Assembly (NCBI GenBank): GCA_020438485.1
Contig: JAGQUM010000020.1
Span: 1 to 35,648 of the forward strand
DNA: 35,648 nucleotides
From: Thermoleophilia bacterium
GTDB lineage: Bacteria > Actinomycetota > Thermoleophilia > Miltoncostaeales > Miltoncostaeaceae
Direction of reading: 5' to 3'
Positions 5,521-26,566 of this stretch are shown piece by piece. How positions within the stretch are numbered: position 1 is the first letter of the stretch; the number at the start of each line of letters is the position of its first letter. Position numbers and translations under genes: made by a program. Below the pieces are notes generated by a model, which was not told the DNA's origin, searched no databases, and worked only from the letters and a program-made list of their open reading frames with translations.

Positions 5521-6564
5521 TCATTCGCGGCCGAGCGCACGCGGCAGGACGGCGACGGTGGCGACGGCCAGCGCGAGGATGCCCCAGAGCCCCCAGAGCG
5601 CCCACAGGCCGAACGCCGCGATGCCCACGAGGCCTCCCAGGAACTCCGCGGCGGACGTCACCGTGGCCCGGGCGGGGCCCTCGATGCGGTCCTGCAGGCG
5701 CATGTCCACGATGATGCGCACGCCGCGGAACACGCCGTAGAACGCGGCGATGGCCAGCACGCCCGCGGGGACGCGGGCCAGACCCGCGACGGCGACGAGC
5801 GCCACCGCGCCGCCGAACGCCCACGCCAGCGCGTCGCCCGATGCGTGGTGGAAGCGGCCGGCGAGGGCCGCACCCAGCGCGCCCAGCAGCGGCAGCCACA
5901 CCACGGCCAGCGGCACCCAGGGTGTGGGCACCCCCCACTCGTGGGCCAGCAGCACGTCGTACTCCTCGAGCGCCTCGAGGCTCAGTAGCAGGGACGAGGC
6001 GGCCAGCGCCCCGCGCACGACGGCCGACCCGGCCGCCTCCCGCACGCCGGCGCGCAGCAGCTCGAGGTACCCGTGGTCGTGGTCCTCGCCCCCGGGGCGG
6101 GCACGACGGGGACGCAGGTCGGGCAGCGTCCACGCGGCGGCGGACGCCGCAAGCGACGCGGCCACGCTGACGGCCCCCACCAGCGGGTAGCCGCCCCACA
6201 CCAGCAGCGGCCCGGCCGCCAGGCCCGCGGGCACCTGCCCGACGAGGCCCATCGCCGCCACCCGCCCGCGCACCCGCGCGTACTCGCCTGACGCCCCGGC
6301 CGCGTCGAGCCCGTCGTAGATGAGCGCCTCCAGCGTGCCGGAGATCAGCGACTCGCCGACGCCCCACAGCACGAAACCGAGGGCGAACGACCAGACCTCC
6401 GGGTGCACGACCCAGCACGCGAAGCCCGCGGCCTGGAACACGCCGGACGCGACCAGCATGGCGCGTCGCGACACCCTGTCGGCCAGCGCCCCGGTGGGGA
6501 CCTCGGCCACGAGCCCCACCACGGCCCACAGGGCGAACAGCCCCGAGATCGCGGCGTCCGACAT
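5521..6564 (-). CDS. MFS transporter (5' end apparently disrupted)
   Basis: The product is hydrophobic with about ten predicted helices and an MFS loop 2-3 motif (GALADRVSRRAML), typical of drug or metabolite efflux carriers. The listed ATG gives 347 residues but removes the first helix. Upstream the frame encodes WAFFIDAIALYPLYALLF, a normal helix 1, preceded by HTVRQIERR, with no ATG, GTG or TTG. Further upstream an in-frame ATG at 6690 sits seven bases after TACCAT, but TGA at 6676-6678 stops it at codon 5. The gene is therefore either a nonsense pseudogene, restarted internally, or affected by a sequence error. It lies downstream of the aldo/keto reductase on the same strand. Confidence 0.75.
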   Translation of the reverse strand: MSDAAISGLFALWAVVGLVAEVPTGALADRVSRRAMLVASGVFQAAGFACWVVHPEVWSFALGFVLWGVGESLISGTLEALIYDGLDAAGASGEYARVRGRVAAMGLVGQVPAGLAAGPLLVWGGYPLVGAVSVAASLAASAAAWTLPDLRPRRARPGGEDHDHGYLELLRAGVREAAGSAVVRGALAASSLLLSLEALEEYDVLLAHEWGVPTPWVPLAVVWLPLLGALGAALAGRFHHASGDALAWAFGGAVALVAVAGLARVPAGVLAIAAFYGVFRGVRIIVDMRLQDRIEGPARATVTSAAEFLGGLVGIAAFGLWALWGLWGILALAVATVAVLPRALGRE

Positions 6565-6697
6565 CCCATGCTCCGCGAACAGCAGGGCGTACAGGGGATA
6601 CAGCGCGATCGCGTCGATGAAGAACGCCCACGCGCACGCGCGGCGCTCGATCTGGCGGACTGTGTGCGGCGACGGTCAGTTCCCGGGCATCAGGACC

Positions 6698-6703
6698 ATG
6701 GTA
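6698..6703 (-). promoter_or_regulatory. Leaderless-type -10 box before the disrupted MFS start
   Basis: TACCAT on the minus strand ends seven bases before the ATG at 6690, which opens the MFS frame but meets TGA at codon 5. It lies just after the end of the aldo/keto reductase gene. Confidence 0.35.
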
Positions 6704-6709
6704 CGCCCG

Positions 6710-7645
6710 TCAGCCGGCCCGGTCGAGGCGGTCGCGCAGCTCGGCCGGCAGATCGAGAGCGGCGCCCGCGAGCGCCGACTCCATCTGACGCACGCTGCTG
6801 ACCCCCGCGATGGGGCGCACGCGCCCGCCCGGGCGGGCCAGCCACGCCAGCACCACCTGTCCCGGCGTGGCGCCCAGTTCGGCCGCAACCTCCCCCAGCA
6901 CCCGGAGGCGGTCGGTGGTGCCGGGGTGGCGGTACGAGTCCGGCAGCGGCCGGTCGGCCCGGTCGTACGCGCCGCGCAGCAGCGGGCTGTAGACCCAGAG
7001 GTCCACGTCGTCGTGGGCGTCCATGAAATCGCGCGTCTCCTCGGTGACCGCCCCGAAGCGGTGGTACCGGTCGGCGTCCGGCGCGTCCGGACGCCGGTGC
7101 ACGTACGAGTCGGCCAGCTGAACGGCGGTGAACGGCTCCGCCCCCGCCTCCCGGGCGAGGGCCCGGGCACGCTCCAGCCGCCACGTGGCGTAGTTCGACG
7201 CGCCCAGCCGCCGCACGGCCCCCTCGGCCACCAGGCGCGCAAGCGCGACGACCGTGTCGGCCAGGGGCGTGTCACGGTCGTCGGCGTGGGCCCAGTACAC
7301 GTCGATGACGTCCGTGCCCAGGCGGGCTCGGCTGCGCTCGACCTCGCGGCGGATCACGGAGGGCCCGAGCCCCTGGACGCCGCCGCCCCCGGCGGGCTCG
7401 ACACCCACCTTCGTGGCGATCTCCACGCGATCGCGCATGCCGGGACGGTCGGCCAGCCAACGGCCGATGACCGCTTCGCTCTGGCCCCCGTGCCCGGTGG
7501 GGTTCGCCCAGAACGCGTAGCAGTTCGCGGTGTCCAGCACCCGCCCGCCCGCGTCGGCGTAGGCGTCGAGGATGTCTCGCGCCGTGGCTTCCGGCACGGT
7601 CGTGCCGAAGTACATGGTGCCGAGGATGAGGGGCGGGGCGGACAT
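6710..7645 (-). CDS. Aldo/keto reductase
   Basis: The 311-residue protein shows the aldo/keto reductase barrel pattern: LILGTMYFGT at the start, the catalytic aspartate and tyrosine in RVLDTANCY, the lysine in EIATKVGVE, the expected histidine in DVYWAHADDRDTPLADTV, and the NADPH-binding end (RPIAGVSSVRQMESAL). It should reduce carbonyls with NADPH in the cytoplasm; the substrate is unknown. I chose the ATG at 7645 because GGAG lies just upstream and the barrel begins directly after it. A TTG eleven codons further upstream is open but adds a low-complexity tail. Confidence 0.88.
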   Translation of the reverse strand: MSAPPLILGTMYFGTTVPEATARDILDAYADAGGRVLDTANCYAFWANPTGHGGQSEAVIGRWLADRPGMRDRVEIATKVGVEPAGGGGVQGLGPSVIRREVERSRARLGTDVIDVYWAHADDRDTPLADTVVALARLVAEGAVRRLGASNYATWRLERARALAREAGAEPFTAVQLADSYVHRRPDAPDADRYHRFGAVTEETRDFMDAHDDVDLWVYSPLLRGAYDRADRPLPDSYRHPGTTDRLRVLGEVAAELGATPGQVVLAWLARPGGRVRPIAGVSSVRQMESALAGAALDLPAELRDRLDRAG

Positions 7646-7704
7646 CGGGCTCCGGAGTTTCGGTGGCGCGGCGCTCAAGCGCGCGCGCCGGGGGGCCGAG
7701 GAGG

Positions 7705-7734
7705 TTGTAGGCCGACCCCCGATTCCGGTACCCT
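7705..7734 (+). promoter_or_regulatory. Promoter of the tRNA cluster
   Basis: TTGTAG at 7705-7710 and TACCCT at 7729-7734 are separated by 18 bases. The predicted transcript starts near 7741, ten bases before the first tRNA. Confidence 0.5.
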
Positions 7735-7750
7735 TCCCGGGCTCACGCGC

Positions 7751-7832
7751 GGGGGGATGCCCGAGTGGTCAAAGGGAGCGGTCTGTAAAATCGCCGGCTC
7801 AGCCTACGGAGGTTCGAACCCTCCTCCCCCCA
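7751..7832 (+). tRNA. tRNA-Tyr (GTA)
   Basis: Acceptor GGGGGGA pairs with TCCCCCC. The anticodon loop CTGTAAA gives GTA. A long variable arm of about 13 bases marks a class II tRNA, and the T arm is GGAGG-TTCGAAC-CCTCC. Discriminator A ends the gene and no CCA is encoded. Confidence 0.95.
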
Positions 7833-18482: not shown

Positions 18483-18917
18483 ATGGCCGGCGAGTCCCCG
18501 AGGCTCCTGTCGGGCGGGAACCCCCAGATCCCGAAGGGCGACGGCGACGCACCCGTGCGGGAGTACATCGCCGGGATGCCCGGCTGGAAGGCCGACGTCG
18601 GCCGGGAGCTCGACGCGATCATCGAGCGCGCCGTCCCCGGCGCGACGAGGGCCGTGCGGTGGAACGCGCCCTTTTACGGCGTTCCGGGAGGCGGGTGGTT
18701 CGCCACCTTCCGCTGCTTCACCCGGTACGTGAAGGTCACGTTTTTCGACGGGGTCGACCTGGACCCCGTGCCGCCGGAGGCCGGGAAGGACGACCGCGCC
18801 CGCCACCTGCACGTCCACGAGGGCGAGGACCTCGATGCGGCGCTGCTGACGCGCTGGATGCAGCAGGCGTCCCGGCTGCCGGGGTACGGCTCCGCGTCGC
18901 CCGGGCCGCGGCCCTAG
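18483..18917 (+). CDS. DUF1801-family protein
   Basis: The 144-residue protein has the DUF1801 pattern: WKADVGRELDAIIERAVPGATRAVRWNAPFYG, then WFATFRCFTRYVKVTFFDG and a short C-terminal helix. The fold is small, soluble and of unknown function. The start is set by GGAGG upstream of ATG. It ends in a four-base overlap with the convergent acyl-CoA ligase gene. Confidence 0.87.
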   Translation: MAGESPRLLSGGNPQIPKGDGDAPVREYIAGMPGWKADVGRELDAIIERAVPGATRAVRWNAPFYGVPGGGWFATFRCFTRYVKVTFFDGVDLDPVPPEAGKDDRARHLHVHEGEDLDAALLTRWMQQASRLPGYGSASPGPRP

Positions 18918-20581
18918 CGGGACACGCGGATCCCGGCGGCCTCCCGGTCGAAGGTATCGGGCGTGACGCCCTCGTCGCGCAGCACGTTCTTGCGCACCCG
19001 CTCCGTCGGGGTGACCGGCAGCGCGTCGACGAAGCGGATGTAGCGCGGCACCATGAAGTACGGCATCCGCTCGGCCATCCAGTGGGTGAACTCCGCCGGG
19101 TCGGGCGCGCCACCCTCGGCGGGCTGGCACACGATGAGGATCTCGTCCTCCGACGAGGCGCCCTCGCTGGCCTTCACGCCGATGGCCGCCGCCCGCGCGA
19201 CGGCGGGGTGGTCCTCCACCTGGCGCTCCACCTCCATGGATGAGACGTTCTCGCCGCGGCGGCGGATGTAGTCCTTCACCCGGTCCATGAAGTAGACGTA
19301 GCCGTCCTCGTCCATGCGCCCCAGGTCGCCGGTGTGCAGCTTGAGGTTGCGGAAGTCCTCGGCCGTCTTCTCGGGCATGCCGTAGTACGCCCGCATGATG
19401 ATGTTCGGAATCCGCTGGTCCACAACGATCTCGCCCGGCGTGCCCGGCGGTAGCGGCAGGTCGGTGCCCGGCTCGACGATGCTCACGTCGTAGCCCGGGT
19501 TCGCGCGCCCGCACGACCCCTTTCGCACCGGCTGCGTGGGGTCCATGGTGGTGCACACGCCGGTCTCGGTGAGGCCGTACCCCTCGGTCAGCGTGACGCC
19601 GAAGCGCTCCTCGAACGCGTCGTAGATGTCGGCGGGGGCCGGGGCCGCCGCGATCGTGTGCACGCGGTGGGCACGGTCCTTCTCGGACGGCGGCTGGTTC
19701 CACAGGAAGTAGAGCATCGCGCCGATGCCGTTGAAGGTGGTGGCGCCCGCGTCGATGACCTGGTCCCAGAAGCGCGAGCCCGAGAACCTCTCGGTGACCG
19801 CCACACGGCCGCCGGCGATCAGGGCCGGGTACGCGCACAGCACCTGGGCGTTCGAGTGAAACAGGGGCAGGCAGGTGAAATAGACCTCGTCGGCCAGACC
19901 CGCGAGGTCGGTGCCCTGGCGCACGATGGCCGACTCGAGCGCGCTGCGGGCCGAGAAGTAGTCCGCGGCGTTCTGCTTGATCACGCCCTTCGACCGGCCG
20001 GTGGTGCCCGACGTGAACATGATGCGCGCGTCGTCGGTCCACGCGTACGCCACGGCCTCGGCATCGGTGTCGGGCGCGTCGCACAGCTCGGCGAACGACT
20101 CCCACGCCACGCGCGGGTCGGGGCCCGTGGCCTGGCCGCCCGACGGCACCACGATCACGCGCTCCAGCAGCGGCAGGTCGCCGGCCACCAGTTCCAGGCG
20201 ATCGAGGTACAGGTCGCTGATGATCAGCGCGCGGGCCTCGACCAGCTGGATCGTCCAGCTGAGGAAGTCGCCCTTGTACGCCGTGTTGATCGGGCTCATG
20301 ACGGCGCCCGCGGTGAGGATGCCGTACCACACGGGGATGTACTCGGCGCAGTTGGGCAGCATCACGCTGACCGACGCGCCGTGCTCCACGCCGCGGGCGC
20401 GCAGGCCGTTGGCCACCCGGTTGGCCAGCGCGTGCGTGGCGCCGTAGCTCACCCACTCGCCGTCGCCGAACCGGCTGTACGGGCGGTCCGGGTGCTCCGC
20501 GGCCCTCCGGCGCAGGATGTCGGGCAGCACCCACGTTGTGGGGTCCTCGCGGGCGTACCAGTCCGTCCACTCGCTACTCAC
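18914..20581 (-). CDS. Acyl-CoA ligase, CaiC-like (AMP-forming)
   Basis: The 555-residue enzyme activates a carboxylic acid to its CoA thioester with ATP. The AMP-binding P-loop is MFTSGTTGRSKGV (about residue 190), followed by GYGLTETGVCTTMD, the adenine/ribose motif LHTGDLGRMDEDGYVYFMDR, the hinge DYIRRRGENVSSMEVE and the C-terminal lysine in TERVRKNVLR. These resemble crotonobetaine/carnitine-CoA ligase relatives, but substrate cannot be read from sequence. The GTG start overlaps the crotonase stop by eight bases, indicating translational coupling. Longer upstream starts would run through the crotonase gene in another frame. It is the last gene of a three-gene operon. Confidence 0.9.
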   Translation of the reverse strand: MSSEWTDWYAREDPTTWVLPDILRRRAAEHPDRPYSRFGDGEWVSYGATHALANRVANGLRARGVEHGASVSVMLPNCAEYIPVWYGILTAGAVMSPINTAYKGDFLSWTIQLVEARALIISDLYLDRLELVAGDLPLLERVIVVPSGGQATGPDPRVAWESFAELCDAPDTDAEAVAYAWTDDARIMFTSGTTGRSKGVIKQNAADYFSARSALESAIVRQGTDLAGLADEVYFTCLPLFHSNAQVLCAYPALIAGGRVAVTERFSGSRFWDQVIDAGATTFNGIGAMLYFLWNQPPSEKDRAHRVHTIAAAPAPADIYDAFEERFGVTLTEGYGLTETGVCTTMDPTQPVRKGSCGRANPGYDVSIVEPGTDLPLPPGTPGEIVVDQRIPNIIMRAYYGMPEKTAEDFRNLKLHTGDLGRMDEDGYVYFMDRVKDYIRRRGENVSSMEVERQVEDHPAVARAAAIGVKASEGASSEDEILIVCQPAEGGAPDPAEFTHWMAERMPYFMVPRYIRFVDALPVTPTERVRKNVLRDEGVTPDTFDREAAGIRVSR

Positions 20582-21398
20582 CGGCGCCGGCCCCCTCGGG
20601 CCGCGGGGCCGCGCCGTCGCGGAACCGGCTCCAGTCGGGCTGGCGCTTTTCCTGGAAGGCGGCGATCCCCTCCCTCGGTTCGGGCCCGTGCACATGGTTC
20701 AGCGCCATCAGCTCGTACCCGTGCTGCATCGACGAGTACAGGAAGTCGGACCTGGCGTTGAGGCCCAGCTTCGCGAGGCGAAGCCCCTGCGGCGACTTGG
20801 CCAGGATCTCGTCGCACCAGCGGTCGACCTCGGAGTCCAGCTCGTCGTCGGGCACTGCCACGTTCGCCAGGCCCATCCGCACGGCCTCCTCGGCGGTGTA
20901 GTGGCGCACCAGGAACAGGATCTCCCGGGCCTTCTTCTCGCCCACCACCATGGGCATGTACTGGCACCCCCACCACAGGGGCGCCGTGCCGATCTTCGGG
21001 CCCGCCTGGCCGAACTTCGCCGACGCGCCCGCAATGGTGAGGTCGCACACCATGTTGAGCTCGTTGCCGCCCCCGATGCAGTACCCCCGCACCCGGGCGA
21101 TGATCGGCTTTCCGTTGTTGCGCATGGCCGAGCCCAGGCGCTCGGCCATGTGGTGGCCACGGCGCTTCTCCTTCATGCCCGACGACGGGTCCTGCACGTC
21201 GCCTCCCACGCAGAACGCCCGGTCTCCCGCACCCGTCAGCACGATGACGCCCACCGACTCGTCGTCGGCGGCCTCCTCGAATGCCTCGGTCAGCTCCAGG
21301 ATGGTCTGGCCCCGGAACGCGTTGAGGCGTTGCGGGCGGTTCATGGTGATCGTCATCCGCGCGCCCTCGCGCGTGACGATGATGTCCTCGTACGCCAT
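20574..21398 (-). CDS. Crotonase-family enzyme, MenB/BadI-like
   Basis: The 274-residue protein resembles naphthoate synthase MenB and 2-ketocyclohexanecarboxyl-CoA hydrolase BadI more than ordinary enoyl-CoA hydratase: LNAFRGQTILEL, GAGDRAFCVGGD (residues 56-67), GYCIGGGNELNMVCDLTIA (105-123), FGQAGPKIG (129-137), VVGEKKAREI and the ending AFQEKRQPDWSRF. MenB does ring closure and BadI ring opening on CoA thioesters. In the recalled family alignment, the aspartate of the block after GPK(V/M)GS is replaced here by Pro140 (KIGTAPLWWG). The reaction may thus differ from both. The ATG follows the nitroreductase TAG by two bases. No men genes are nearby. Confidence 0.85.
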   Translation of the reverse strand: MAYEDIIVTREGARMTITMNRPQRLNAFRGQTILELTEAFEEAADDESVGVIVLTGAGDRAFCVGGDVQDPSSGMKEKRRGHHMAERLGSAMRNNGKPIIARVRGYCIGGGNELNMVCDLTIAGASAKFGQAGPKIGTAPLWWGCQYMPMVVGEKKAREILFLVRHYTAEEAVRMGLANVAVPDDELDSEVDRWCDEILAKSPQGLRLAKLGLNARSDFLYSSMQHGYELMALNHVHGPEPREGIAAFQEKRQPDWSRFRDGAAPRPEGAGAGE

Positions 21399-21400
21399 TC

Positions 21401-22429
21401 CTATTGCTCCGCGGGAAGGAACTTCGCGGTGTCGATACCGTGCTCGGACAGGAGCTTGGCGAACATCTGCCGCATCTCCTCCGGATACTCGGGCAGGTCC
21501 TCGTTGTCGATCAGCCACCGCGCCCGCTCGCGCATGCGGGGGCCGAAGTCCCAGTCGGGGTCGGCCATCAGACGCTGGATCTCGCGCACAGGGAAGCTGA
21601 TGACGCCCTTGTCGCGGCCGAACCTGTCGGCGATCCGGTCCATCTGCTCGAACCGGCCCGGCAACGGGGCCTGCTCCTGAATCAGCCCCTTCTCCTTCAG
21701 CATCTCCACCGTGGCCGGGTCGCTCTTCCACGGTGTGCCGAACGCGTTCTCCGAGAACAGCGCCTCCATCTTCAGGCGAGGCCGCTGGCCGCCGGCGTTC
21801 GCGTCCTCCAGCGGGTAGCCCACCGCGTGGCCCCACGTGAAGCGGTAATGGTCGGGCAGGCCGAGGGCCTTCTCGACGCCGCCCGGCTTGCGACCGAACG
21901 CGATGAGGATGTTGCCCAGGCCCAGGCCCACGCCCGCGGTGATGGCGTTCGCGGCCGCCTGCCCGGTCTCGAACCGCAGCAGCATCTCGGTGCGCTCCTT
22001 GGGGAAGCTCATGAGACGCGGCAGCGTCTGGGTCATGGAGAACTCGTAGTTCCAGCCGTGGTACTTCGACGCCGCGCCCGCCAGCGACACGGTGCTGATG
22101 CCGTCGATGGCCCGGCCGTACCACGCGTTCAGGTTCGTGAGCCAGAGGATGAGGTGCGACGCCTGGTTGATGACCGTGACGTTGAAGCCCGAGACGCAGT
22201 CCTCGATGTCGTCCCAGATGTCGCAGTAGTCCTTTTGCAGGACCACCGCCTCGGTGGCGTTGATGTTGCCCTGGCACGAACTGAACCGGGCGGCCTGCAG
22301 CATCGTCTCGATCTTCCACCGCTCGACCTCGCGATCCGGGTCGAAGTACCGGATGCTGCGCCGGTTGCCCAGCGCCCGCAGCACGGGAACGTCGGGAATC
22401 TGGCCGGCGGACGGGACCTGGGTCGACAA
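21401..22429 (-). CDS. Nitroreductase-family flavoprotein with long C-terminal extension
   Basis: The 342-residue protein begins as a typical FMN nitroreductase (LRALGNRRSIRYFDPDREVE, then METMLQAARF-like helix and SSCQGNINATEAVVL), with a later GQAAANAITAGVGLGLGNILIAFG helix and cofactor-region residues. Typical members are about 180-220 residues. This one has a middle insertion and an extra C-terminal region of some 90 residues (PGRFEQMDRIADRFGRD onward) that I do not recognise. Members reduce or oxidise small substrates such as nitro groups, quinones or enones. The TTG start is set by GGAAAGG seven bases upstream. It is first in the operon, next to the tandem operators. Confidence 0.85.
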   Translation of the reverse strand: MSTQVPSAGQIPDVPVLRALGNRRSIRYFDPDREVERWKIETMLQAARFSSCQGNINATEAVVLQKDYCDIWDDIEDCVSGFNVTVINQASHLILWLTNLNAWYGRAIDGISTVSLAGAASKYHGWNYEFSMTQTLPRLMSFPKERTEMLLRFETGQAAANAITAGVGLGLGNILIAFGRKPGGVEKALGLPDHYRFTWGHAVGYPLEDANAGGQRPRLKMEALFSENAFGTPWKSDPATVEMLKEKGLIQEQAPLPGRFEQMDRIADRFGRDKGVISFPVREIQRLMADPDWDFGPRMRERARWLIDNEDLPEYPEEMRQMFAKLLSEHGIDTAKFLPAEQ

Positions 22430-22449
22430 GGGGACGCCTTTCCGGGCGG

Positions 22450-22485
22450 GTTTACGGTGTAAACAGCGGTGTTTACGTAGTAAAC
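22450..22485. promoter_or_regulatory. Two tandem TetR-type operators
   Basis: GTTTACGGTGTAAAC (22450-22464) and GTTTACGTAGTAAAC (22471-22485) share perfect six-base arms around three-base centres. Their centres are 21 bases, about two helical turns, apart, so two repressor dimers could bind the same face. They lie between the nitroreductase operon and the divergent TetR gene. The second site overlaps the TetR gene's TAAACT box. Confidence 0.8.
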
Positions 22486-22486
22486 T
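22481..22486 (+). promoter_or_regulatory. Leaderless-type -10 box of the second TetR gene
   Basis: TAAACT ends seven bases before the GTG at 22494 and overlaps the second operator, consistent with autorepression. Confidence 0.55.
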
Positions 22487-22493
22487 CCGGGGC

Positions 22494-23108
22494 GTGGCGT
22501 CCGTCAACCCCTCCCCGGCACGCGAACCGCTGACCCGTAGGCGCGTGCTGTCGGCCGCGCTGGACGTGATCGACCGCGACGGCCTCGACGGGTTCACGAT
22601 GCGGCGGCTCGGCGCCGCGCTGGGCGTGGAGGCGATGGCCGTCTACCGGCACGTGCCCAGCAAGGCGGCGCTGCTCGACGGCGTGATCGAGGCGATGCTG
22701 GCCGAGCTCAACGTCGGCGATCCCATGCCCGCCGACTGGCGGGGCGCGCTGTCGACGCTGGCCCGCCGCCACCGTGCGCTGGAGCGCCGGCACCCCGGCG
22801 CGTACGCGCTGCTGGCCGGGATGCCGGCGGCGGCGTACGCGGCCGCGCGGCCGGTGGTGGCCGACATCCTCTCCAGCCTCGCCGAGGGCGGCTTCGCCGG
22901 GCGCGACGCCGCCCGCGCGCTGCGCCTGGTGGTGCGGTTCACCATCGGATTCGCGCTGACGCGGCCGTCAGGAGATGTGCCGCCGCCCCACTCCGATCCG
23001 CTGGGACCCGTCCTGGCCGGCCTGGCCGACCCCGCGGAGGAGGACCGGCTGTTCGAGGTGGGCCTCGCGGCCCTGCTGGACGGGCTGGCCCCGGCCGAGG
23101 TGCCGTGA
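22494..23108 (+). CDS. TetR-family transcriptional regulator of the nitroreductase operon
   Basis: The 204-residue protein has a TetR helix-turn-helix (LTRRRVLSAALDVIDRDG, then FTMRRLGAALGVEAMAVYRH) and an all-helical ligand domain. The GTG start gives the normal short N-terminal tail, and the TAAACT box seven bases upstream supports it. It is divergent from the nitroreductase/crotonase/ligase operon with two palindromes between, the classic layout of a repressor released by a pathway substrate or CoA thioester. That role is inferred from layout. It resembles the TetR at 1248-1865 in overall plan. Confidence 0.88.
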   Translation: MASVNPSPAREPLTRRRVLSAALDVIDRDGLDGFTMRRLGAALGVEAMAVYRHVPSKAALLDGVIEAMLAELNVGDPMPADWRGALSTLARRHRALERRHPGAYALLAGMPAAAYAAARPVVADILSSLAEGGFAGRDAARALRLVVRFTIGFALTRPSGDVPPPHSDPLGPVLAGLADPAEEDRLFEVGLAALLDGLAPAEVP

Positions 23109-24680: not shown

Positions 24681-25820
24681 TCAGGCGGGGACGTACACGC
24701 AGCTGGGGTCCTCGGCGAGATGGTCGCCGGTGACGCCGTAGGCCCGGGCGCGGCTGCCACCACAGACCTCTTTGAACCCGCACCGGCCGCACTTGCCCTT
24801 CAGCAGCGCCGGGTCGCGCAGCTCGCGGAACAGCGGCGCGTCGCGGTAGATGTCGACGGCGCCGGCCTCGCGGACGTTGCCGGCCACGATGGGCAGGAAC
24901 CCCGACGGCGTCACGTCCCCCGTGTGCGAGATGAACATGAACCCGCGGCCGTCGTTGACGCCCTTCATGGGCCGGTCCAGGCCGTCGGCGTACCGGAAGC
25001 CCGCGCCGGCGACCCCCTCCAGCCGGTCGCCCAGCGACGCCCGCGCGGCGCGCTGCAGCGCGATGCGGCGGTAGTGGGGGGCCGCCGTGGCCTTGATGTC
25101 GAAGCCCACGGTGCCGGTGAGGTCATGCAGCCAGCCGAGCACCCGCTCGTGCCCGTCCGCGTCCAGCATGGCCAGGCGGGCGCCGCGGCCCGTGGGCACC
25201 AGGAAGAACACCGACCACTGCACCACGCCCCACTCCTGCAGTAGCGGCACCATGTCGGCCAGGGAGTCCGCGTTATCGGCGTACACCGTCGTGTTGACCT
25301 GCAGCGCCAGGCCCGCGTCGCCCGCCGCGCGCATCCCGCGCACGGTGCGCTCGAACGACCCGGCGAACCCGCGGAAGCGGTCGTGGACCTCGGCCGTCGG
25401 CGCGTCGAGGCTGAAGGCCACCCGGCGGATGCCCGCGTCACGCGCACGGGCCATGCGGTCGGCCGTCACGAGGGCCGTGGCCGTGGGGGTGAGCGATACG
25501 CGCAGCCCCGCCGCGTCGGCGTGCGCGGCCAGGTCGAACAGGTCAGGCCGCATCAGGGGGTCGCCGCCGGTCAACACCAGGATGGGGCGGCCGAAGCGCG
25601 CGAGGTCGTCGATGAGCGCCATGCCCTCGGCGGTCGTCAGCTCGCGCGGGTCGCGCCGGTGCTGCGCGTCCGCGCGGCAGTGGTCGCACGCGTACGCGCA
25701 GGCCCGGGTGACCTCCCACGCGATGGTGAAGGGGGCCATGTCGAAGTCGATCCGCGCCAGCCAGCCGTCGCGTTCGCCCCGCATCGCGCGCGCGCCGGGG
25801 GTGAGGGTGCGCTCGTCCAT
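24681..25820 (-). CDS. Radical SAM/SPASM protein, TIGR04053-like
   Basis: The 379-residue protein has the radical SAM cluster motif C41-AYA-C45-DH-C48, the LTGGDPLMRPD SAM-binding block and a C-terminal SPASM-type cysteine set (Cys344, 347, 353 and 374) in GKCGRCGFKEVCGGSRARAY and DPSCVY. This set is typical of the group holding AhbC/AhbD, NirJ and TIGR04053 proteins, which modify hemes or peptides through carbon radicals. No heme-pathway genes are adjacent, so the substrate is open. A TAGACA box lies seven bases before ATG, fitting a leaderless mRNA. It is divergent from a 92-residue hypothetical gene. Confidence 0.87.
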   Translation of the reverse strand: MDERTLTPGARAMRGERDGWLARIDFDMAPFTIAWEVTRACAYACDHCRADAQHRRDPRELTTAEGMALIDDLARFGRPILVLTGGDPLMRPDLFDLAAHADAAGLRVSLTPTATALVTADRMARARDAGIRRVAFSLDAPTAEVHDRFRGFAGSFERTVRGMRAAGDAGLALQVNTTVYADNADSLADMVPLLQEWGVVQWSVFFLVPTGRGARLAMLDADGHERVLGWLHDLTGTVGFDIKATAAPHYRRIALQRAARASLGDRLEGVAGAGFRYADGLDRPMKGVNDGRGFMFISHTGDVTPSGFLPIVAGNVREAGAVDIYRDAPLFRELRDPALLKGKCGRCGFKEVCGGSRARAYGVTGDHLAEDPSCVYVPA

Positions 25821-25827
25821 GGGGCGG

Positions 25828-25833
25828 TGTCTA
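25828..25833 (-). promoter_or_regulatory. Leaderless-type -10 box of the radical SAM gene
   Basis: TAGACA on the minus strand ends seven bases before the ATG at 25820; there is no ribosome-binding site. Confidence 0.4.
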
Positions 25834-25904
25834 CCACGCGACACGTCCCTGATCGCCCGCCGGGGGGGACCGTAGAAACCCCGGACATGTGGCAGGCTGG
25901 GCGC

Positions 25905-26183
25905 ATGCACACCGACACACCCGCGTTCTCGTGGCGCGTCAACGCCGACGCCGCACTTCCCGACGTGGCACCGCCCGGCCTGGCCGACGAGGTGGCGCGT
26001 GCGTTCCGTGCCGACGGCGGCCTGCCCGACGTCACCATCGTGGGCGGCGCCCTTCACCTGCAGGTGCATGCGCGCGGCCGCACCAAGGACGATGCCGAGC
26101 ACGCCGTGGCCCAGGGGCTTGCCGCGGTGCTGCGCGACCTCGGGCAAGGCGAGGTCCACGTCCGCGCGTCGGTGGCGCTGTGA
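25905..26183 (+). CDS. Small hypothetical protein
   Basis: The 92-residue product (MHTDTPAFSWRVNADAALP onward) has two likely strands (LPDVTIVGGALHLQVHARG and GEVHVRASVAL) around a helix (TKDDAEHAVAQGLAAVL), a compact alpha/beta fold with no cysteine, signal or membrane segment. CAGGCT ends six bases before this ATG. An in-frame ATG at 25887 after TAGAAA would add six residues. The family is not recognised. It is divergent from the radical SAM gene, but nothing in it looks like a peptide substrate. Confidence 0.6.
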   Translation: MHTDTPAFSWRVNADAALPDVAPPGLADEVARAFRADGGLPDVTIVGGALHLQVHARGRTKDDAEHAVAQGLAAVLRDLGQGEVHVRASVAL

Positions 26184-26566
26184 CCCCGGCGGGTGCCGCA
26201 TGAGCGGCGGCCACGGTGCCCCCGGCCGCATCGCCGGCGTCGACCTCACCGCCCCCGACGCCAGGGCCGCGCGCGTCGACCTCGACCCGCGGGGTTGCGG
26301 ACTGGACCCCGCAGCCGCTCGACATGGGCGCAGACGACGGGTGCGCGCCTGACGGAACGCCGGCGGCGGCGTGTGCCACGACACCGGGCGATCCAACGCC
26401 GGCCTGCCGCCTGGTGGATGCCGTGCATGGCCGAGGTGGATCCGGGCACCGGGCTCCGCTGCGCGGTGGTGTGCGGCCCCGCCGGGGCGGATCGCCCTGC
26501 AAGGGGGACGGCACGGGGCGGCGGCGGAAGGCCTGCCGCGCCGGCAACGACTAGGATCGCGCGCCC
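26184..26566 (+). pseudogene. Possible decayed gene before prfC
   Basis: Coding character hops between frames. From ATG at 26201 one frame reads MSGGHGAPGRIAGVDLTAPD and on to about 26310. A second then reads DWTPQPLDMGADDG, and a third is faintly visible further on. No intact frame spans the stretch. It may be a pseudogene with several indels or simply noncoding GC-rich sequence. The product is not recognised. Confidence 0.3.
26552..26557 (+). promoter_or_regulatory. -10 box of prfC, near-leaderless
   Basis: TAGGAT ends nine bases before the ATG at 26567, so at most a very short leader is expected. Confidence 0.45.

Follow-up and report, generated by a model that had tools for sequence, protein, structure and literature searches.

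A TetR-flanked operon of a nitroreductase-fold flavoprotein, a crotonase and an acyl-CoA ligase, conserved essentially within Miltoncostaeales, as a candidate inducible CoA-ester module

The window analysed here is a contig of 35,648 nucleotides (JAGQUM010000020.1, or C62) from a Thermoleophilia bacterium of the order Miltoncostaeales (assembly GCA_020438485.1, genome G000; 2.58 Mb, 95% complete). It contains three tightly coupled genes, for an acyl-coenzyme A (acyl-CoA) ligase, a crotonase-superfamily enzyme and a long nitroreductase-fold flavoprotein, which face a TetR-family regulator gene. The enzymes are referred to as LIG, CRO and NTR, or as LIG1, CRO1 and NTR1 where they are to be told apart from paralogues. 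The locus is laid out as follows.

18914..20581, minus strand: acyl-CoA ligase LIG (ANL superfamily, PRK06155-like), 555 amino acids (aa), GTG start
20574..21398, minus strand: crotonase-superfamily enzyme CRO, 274 aa, ATG start
21401..22429, minus strand: long nitroreductase-fold flavoprotein NTR, from the Pfam Nitroreductase domain and the AlphaFold2 fold
22450..22464, no strand: putative TetR operator 1, palindrome GTTTACGGTGTAAAC, an exact GTTTAC-N3-GTAAAC
22471..22485, no strand: putative TetR operator 2, palindrome GTTTACGTAGTAAAC, an exact GTTTAC-N3-GTAAAC
22494..23108, plus strand: TetR-family regulator, 204 aa, GTG start, divergent from the operon

A gap of only 2 bases separates NTR from CRO (21399-21400), and bases 20574-20581 are shared by CRO and LIG, an 8-base overlap. 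The probable start of NTR is the TTG codon at 22427-22429, which has GGAAAGG ahead of it. The two palindromes are spaced 21 bp apart and occupy much of the gap between the divergent genes. They are the sole sites in the window in a scan allowing up to two mismatches (0.10 expected), and no shuffle gave two. The sister genome carries one exact copy of the palindrome at the equivalent position, and the palindromes in two other loci (L005 and L084) appear by eye to be degraded. The regulator contains the Pfam domains TetR_N and TetR_C_1 and is a weak match to the NCBIfam model PRK13756. A scan for sigma-70 promoters gave no match. The coupled genes, divergent regulator and paired operators are all as an initial annotation of the window had described them. 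Close to the TetR gene, 24681-26396 on the minus strand encodes a radical-SAM-like protein, recognised from its motif by eye; genes nearby are kept in the sister genome (L001).

Each of the three enzymes matches a Pfam family: AMP-binding for LIG (E-value 5.8e-69), ECH_1 for CRO (7.1e-61) and Nitroreductase for NTR (2.4e-12). NTR scores 47.8 bits against PF00881 (gathering score 23.5), and residues 10-232 of its AlphaFold2 model (pLDDT 81) form a nitroreductase core, so that domain and fold both place it in this family. The top row in VIA-align is the enone reductase CLA-ER (PDB 4qlx; Z 18.2, root-mean-square deviation 2.9, 192 residues aligned), which is tied within 1 Z with several other nitroreductases and oxidoreductases; the sequence match to CLA-ER has an E-value of 0.0028. 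From its fold, NTR would be expected to bind flavin mononucleotide (FMN) and to use NAD(P)H. TyzC, an oxidase of the nitroreductase superfamily with an unrelated role, is an example of this fold that can also desaturate (PMC10404671). Family members from outside the order are shorter, at ~270 aa, the final ~70 residues of NTR being absent.

LIG is a member of the ANL superfamily, with 233.2 bits against PF00501 and the core motifs FTSGTTGRSKG (P-loop), YGLTETG (A5), HTGDLG (A7) and RVKDYIRRRGEN (A8). PRK06155 is by far the best of 102 NCBIfam models, at 471.5 bits and under its cut-off of 722. The model for crotonobetaine/carnitine-CoA ligase, PRK08008, is fourth-best and also below cut-off. 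The Pfam domains and the NTR fold model agree with the acid-activating ligase and long nitroreductase-family flavoprotein named initially. A second ligase in the window genome (60%; G000:C12:1-15000, L086) has as neighbours, on a reading by eye, an aldehyde-dehydrogenase-like frame and an AhpD-like plus hydrolase-like frame, with a peptide-type ABC transporter nearby.

CRO belongs to the crotonase superfamily (PF00378, 206.1 bits; gathering score 27). Its best NCBIfam model is that of BadI (TIGR03210), at 253.9 bits under a cut-off of 467.6, and the MenB models PRK07396 (250.1 bits, cut-off 380) and TIGR01929 (241.2 bits, cut-off 342.7) are also missed, the scores amounting to little over half to ~70% of the BadI and MenB cut-offs. 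The model for crotonobetainyl-CoA hydratase, PRK03580, falls outside the 25 best. In the HMMER alignment to Escherichia coli MenB (4els), three residues with roles in MenB catalysis (PMC3637252) are replaced in CRO, the essential Asp163 by Pro140, Tyr97 by Met75 and Tyr258 by His235. The position of the Asp is Pro in 22 of 22 aligned rows of the CRO family. On the replaced residues and the scores below cut-off, CRO was rejected as a MenB or a BadI. Thus the initial description of CRO as a relative of ring-closing or ring-opening enzymes holds for overall similarity but not for the MenB catalytic residues, and the ring cleavage or closure at the CoA ester proposed with it is not supported, given their replacement throughout the family.

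Enoyl-CoA hydratases of the two-Glu type use Glu144 and Glu164 (rat numbering). In CRO, Glu113 aligns with Glu144 and is invariant in the family, and Gly133 takes the place of the second Glu, so CRO is not an enzyme of this type. His235 is also invariant. These residues, compared at the positions of E. coli MenB and the rat hydratase and not with EchA20, favour acid-base catalysis with an enoyl- or hydroxyacyl-CoA as substrate over Claisen-type ring chemistry. The argument is short of proof, since catalytic residues differ greatly among crotonases.

Relatives were sampled as 42 genomes of the order Miltoncostaeales and 396 genomes across the phylum, and breadth outside Actinobacteria was probed only with plasmids and with a strict peptide pattern run against 84,980 genomes. 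NTR is present in 39 of the 42 Miltoncostaeales genomes, mostly as two paralogues each, with identities to the window protein of 87% and downward. The rest of the phylum sample yielded it in just two genomes, both of another family, at 35% identity. The operon-type NTR1 sequences form one clade in the tree (support 1.0), nested among those of the stand-alone NTR2, and the NTR-linked ligases also form one clade. NTR2 genes (L050, L020-L047) are usually divergent from a gene for a ~120-aa B12-binding-like protein and lie near MutS2.

When the coordinates of NTR, CRO and LIG matches were joined, NTR1 was found in 25 genomes. It is followed by LIG in 15 of the 23 whose contig extends far enough to judge, and CRO lies between the two in 11 of the 25. 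The full trio occurs in all seven NTR1-bearing genomes of genera g1, g5 and g11; losses are limited to genus g12, which keeps the trio in part and in one case (L006) has just a C-terminal remnant of the ligase left. Divergent TetR homologues adjoin the operon in L001, L005 and L084, among genera in g1 and g11 only. Since the gene set is conserved across relatives, it is not a product of chance. The co-occurrence of the three families, which the initial annotation had proposed to look for, is thus real within the order, and the trio is conserved essentially there only. Outside the order, the two families are linked in the genome G411 of the same phylum, where a distantly related NTR (35%) adjoins a PRK06155-like ligase. 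Neither NCBIfam nor the literature searched (for the trio and for Miltoncostaea metabolism) holds a named pathway with exactly these three enzymes, in line with the novelty claimed at the outset. Several contigs labelled Bifidobacterium breve (L006, L017 and L045) carry Miltoncostaeales-type genes, and the organism labels of these metagenome-assembled genomes look wrong.

In relatives, a methyltransferase, an aminotransferase, c5 and ACAD6 (an acyl-CoA dehydrogenase, ACAD) are encoded beside or downstream of NTR1, and in nine related loci the operon has an ACAD gene at its flank. The window genome carries ACAD6 (70% identical) on contig C75 and c5 on C84. The lack of an acyl-CoA dehydrogenase noted initially is correct for the operon itself but misleading for the pathway: given the loci of relatives and the copy on C75, the absence reflects where the gene lies and is no sign that the pathway lacks this enzyme. 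The gene c5 encodes a protein of ~450 aa without a Pfam domain, is present in 39 of the 42 genomes of the order and is often directly downstream of the operon. Two copies are located as follows.

G000:C84:53703-55028: c5, window genome
L009:10890-12245: c5, related locus

By-eye motifs (RKSRR and QNxNLxxQALGLGG) had raised c5 as a candidate second nitroreductase; this was rejected on a profile comparison (probability 0.3%) and a PDB sequence search without a credible match. Its AlphaFold model has a pLDDT of 43.

Paralogues of the operon enzymes occur in other clusters. LIG2, a PRK06155-type ligase, clusters with two thiolases, an HMG-CoA-synthase-like enzyme and small proteins that were read by eye, without a family match, as DUF35-like (L078:6463-12466; L081:9697-15345). 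In most genomes positive for coenzyme F420, the crotonase CRO2 and cofD are separated by a few kilobases. In L080 it overlaps cofG by 4 bases (5758-6564 and 6561-7763), and it overlaps or abuts cofG in L076, L077, L079 and L083 too. The complete F420 locus of L080 also holds cofH, cofE/cofC, cofD, MaoC, two acetoacetate-decarboxylase-like genes, an aminotransferase, an IclR regulator and a TRAP transporter, with CofE as a stand-alone protein. It is possible that the CRO2-cofG locus is an F420-linked catabolic island. On actinobacterial plasmids (Paenarthrobacter pCZY, L071 1044-13252; Rhodococcus opacus G13, L072 887-15754), NTR homologues are next to cofD in clusters that also contain cofGH, a Baeyer-Villiger-type oxidoreductase and an aminotransferase. 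A literature search on the Paenarthrobacter plasmid pathway gave no match. Searches for cofD found none in three genomes that carry both NTR types, namely the window genome, the sister genome G011 and G018 (99% complete), so F420 is seemingly not required by the operon. The operon looks like a set of parts copied from a larger order-wide metabolism and reassembled under its own TetR.

The interpretation we favour, to which we give about an even chance, is that the operon is an inducible accessory CoA-ester module for one carboxylic acid, derived from duplicated CoA-ester parts common to Miltoncostaeales. From its family and conserved ANL motifs, the PRK06155-type LIG would turn the acid into its CoA thioester. 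NTR, as an FMN-type enzyme, would then add or remove two electrons at a carbon-carbon double bond conjugated to a carbonyl, more likely in the direction of enone or enoyl reduction. CRO, with the thioester bound at its oxyanion hole, would carry out hydration, isomerisation or elimination through Glu113 and perhaps His235; Claisen or retro-Claisen chemistry of the MenB/BadI type is left out of the scheme on the basis of the replaced residues. The product would pass to an ACAD and to further steps whose genes lie outside the operon. TetR would bind both palindromes and repress transcription in both directions until an acyl-CoA of the pathway releases it.

Several points weigh against this interpretation. 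The substrate, product and induction in the scheme are predictions from sequence. The A10 motif of LIG is PTERVRK, in which the usual GK lysine is missing, as it is in all homologues examined. A nitroreductase fold leaves reduction, oxidation and flavin reduction undistinguished. Eight freshwater genomes of g12 have NTR without an adjacent ligase, several of the g12 genomes being without the operon CRO as well, so NTR can act without LIG and CRO. The scheme is unproven, for an operon made of known enzyme families that has no named equivalent in the resources searched. The interpretation given in the initial annotation is itself partly supported; its account of the architecture and its claim of novelty hold, and its ring-cleavage chemistry is without support.

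A broader proposal, clearly less probable, is that an undescribed CoA-ester pathway runs throughout Miltoncostaeales and is partly wired into F420 biosynthesis, with the window operon as an inducible spin-off for a second substrate in which NTR acts directly on CoA thioesters. The shared enzymes would be the long NTR, the Glu-only crotonase, the PRK06155-type ligase, c5, ACAD and the thiolase/HMG-CoA-synthase-like set. If the favoured interpretation is right, a nitroreductase-fold enzyme fills a CoA-ester redox role usually held by acyl-CoA dehydrogenases or FabK-like enzymes, and a whole order of mostly uncultured Actinobacteria relies on a pathway named in none of the resources searched. The order-wide conservation reaches down to genomes of 1.5 Mb and makes this testable in cultured Miltoncostaea.

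Four other explanations were weighed against the accessory module. Ring opening in the manner of the KstR2 regulon is close to what was first proposed for the window: a FadD3-like ligase would activate a cyclic acid, the flavoenzyme would unsaturate it in the role of IpdC, and an EchA20/BadI-like crotonase would hydrolyse the ring by a retro-Dieckmann reaction. The set of TetR, ligase, MenB-like crotonase and FMN enzyme does match KstR2, FadD3, EchA20 and IpdC (PMC5380842), and BadI and MenB are the best NCBIfam models for CRO. However, MenB Asp163 and both Tyr residues are replaced in CRO (a comparison with MenB, not EchA20), and IpdC is FabK-like (PMC5380842) where NTR has a nitroreductase fold. 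The operon contains no FabK-type IpdC and no equivalents of IpdAB, IpdF or FadA6, and is thus not a KstR2/HIP module, a statement limited to the operon, as no search for these genes covered the remainder of the genome. We consider ring opening of this type unlikely. Less likely still is detoxification, in which a TetR-controlled nitroreductase would act on electrophiles or nitro compounds, and the ligase and crotonase would clear the resulting acid. TetR genes beside nitroreductases are common in xenobiotic responses, and the weak PRK13756 match of the regulator would suit such a role, but the near-universal NTR of the order, with a second paralogue in many genomes, fits core metabolism better, and the genes seen adjoining the operon include none for efflux or glutathione. 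Carnitine or crotonobetaine-type metabolism, with a CaiC-like ligase, a CaiD-like crotonase and the flavoprotein replacing CaiA, draws on the ranks of PRK06155 and PRK08008 among the LIG models and appears improbable: all scores are far below cut-offs, CRO is nearest to MenB and BadI with PRK03580 outside its best models, and the operon has no CaiB-type CoA-transferase or carnitine transporter. Service to F420, with NTR as a free-standing dehydro-F420-0 reductase or F420 partner, is most improbable, being suggested by the plasmid cofD neighbours and by the overlap of CRO2 with cofG in a complete locus with stand-alone CofE but largely refuted by distribution, as the occurrence of NTR in the order does not follow that of cofD, and the reductase role was rejected on the NTR-bearing genomes in which cofD was not found.

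Among known systems, the KstR2 regulon of Mycobacterium and Rhodococcus resembles the window operon in its TetR-controlled ligase, MenB-clustering crotonase and flavin oxidoreductase acting on CoA esters; its IpdAB, IpdF, FadE30 and FadA6 are absent from the operon, and CRO is without the MenB catalytic residues. BadI, the 2-ketocyclohexanecarboxyl-CoA hydrolase, provides the top-scoring model for CRO, which remains below its cut-off and has Pro for the MenB-type Asp. The closest solved structures to CRO are those of MenB (E 4.5e-64), with a conserved fold; Pro140, Met75 and His235 set CRO apart, and the window operon contains no men genes. LIG has its best model and the ANL core motifs in common with the PRK06155 ligase and CaiC, and differs in its distance from the cut-off. 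The fold of CLA-ER and of NfsA/NfrA-type nitroreductases is common to residues 10-232 of the NTR model, whereas identity is ~11-23% and NTR has an extra C-terminal part of ~110 residues. Finally, beyond the order the nearest NTR homologues detected are those of G411 and of the pCZY and G13 plasmid clusters (the latter 34-37% over 253 residues). The plasmid homologues have ~270 aa, no C-terminal extension and no adjacent ligase, and their clusters hold the Baeyer-Villiger-type oxidoreductase instead of a ligase and, on pCZY, CoA-transferases as well.

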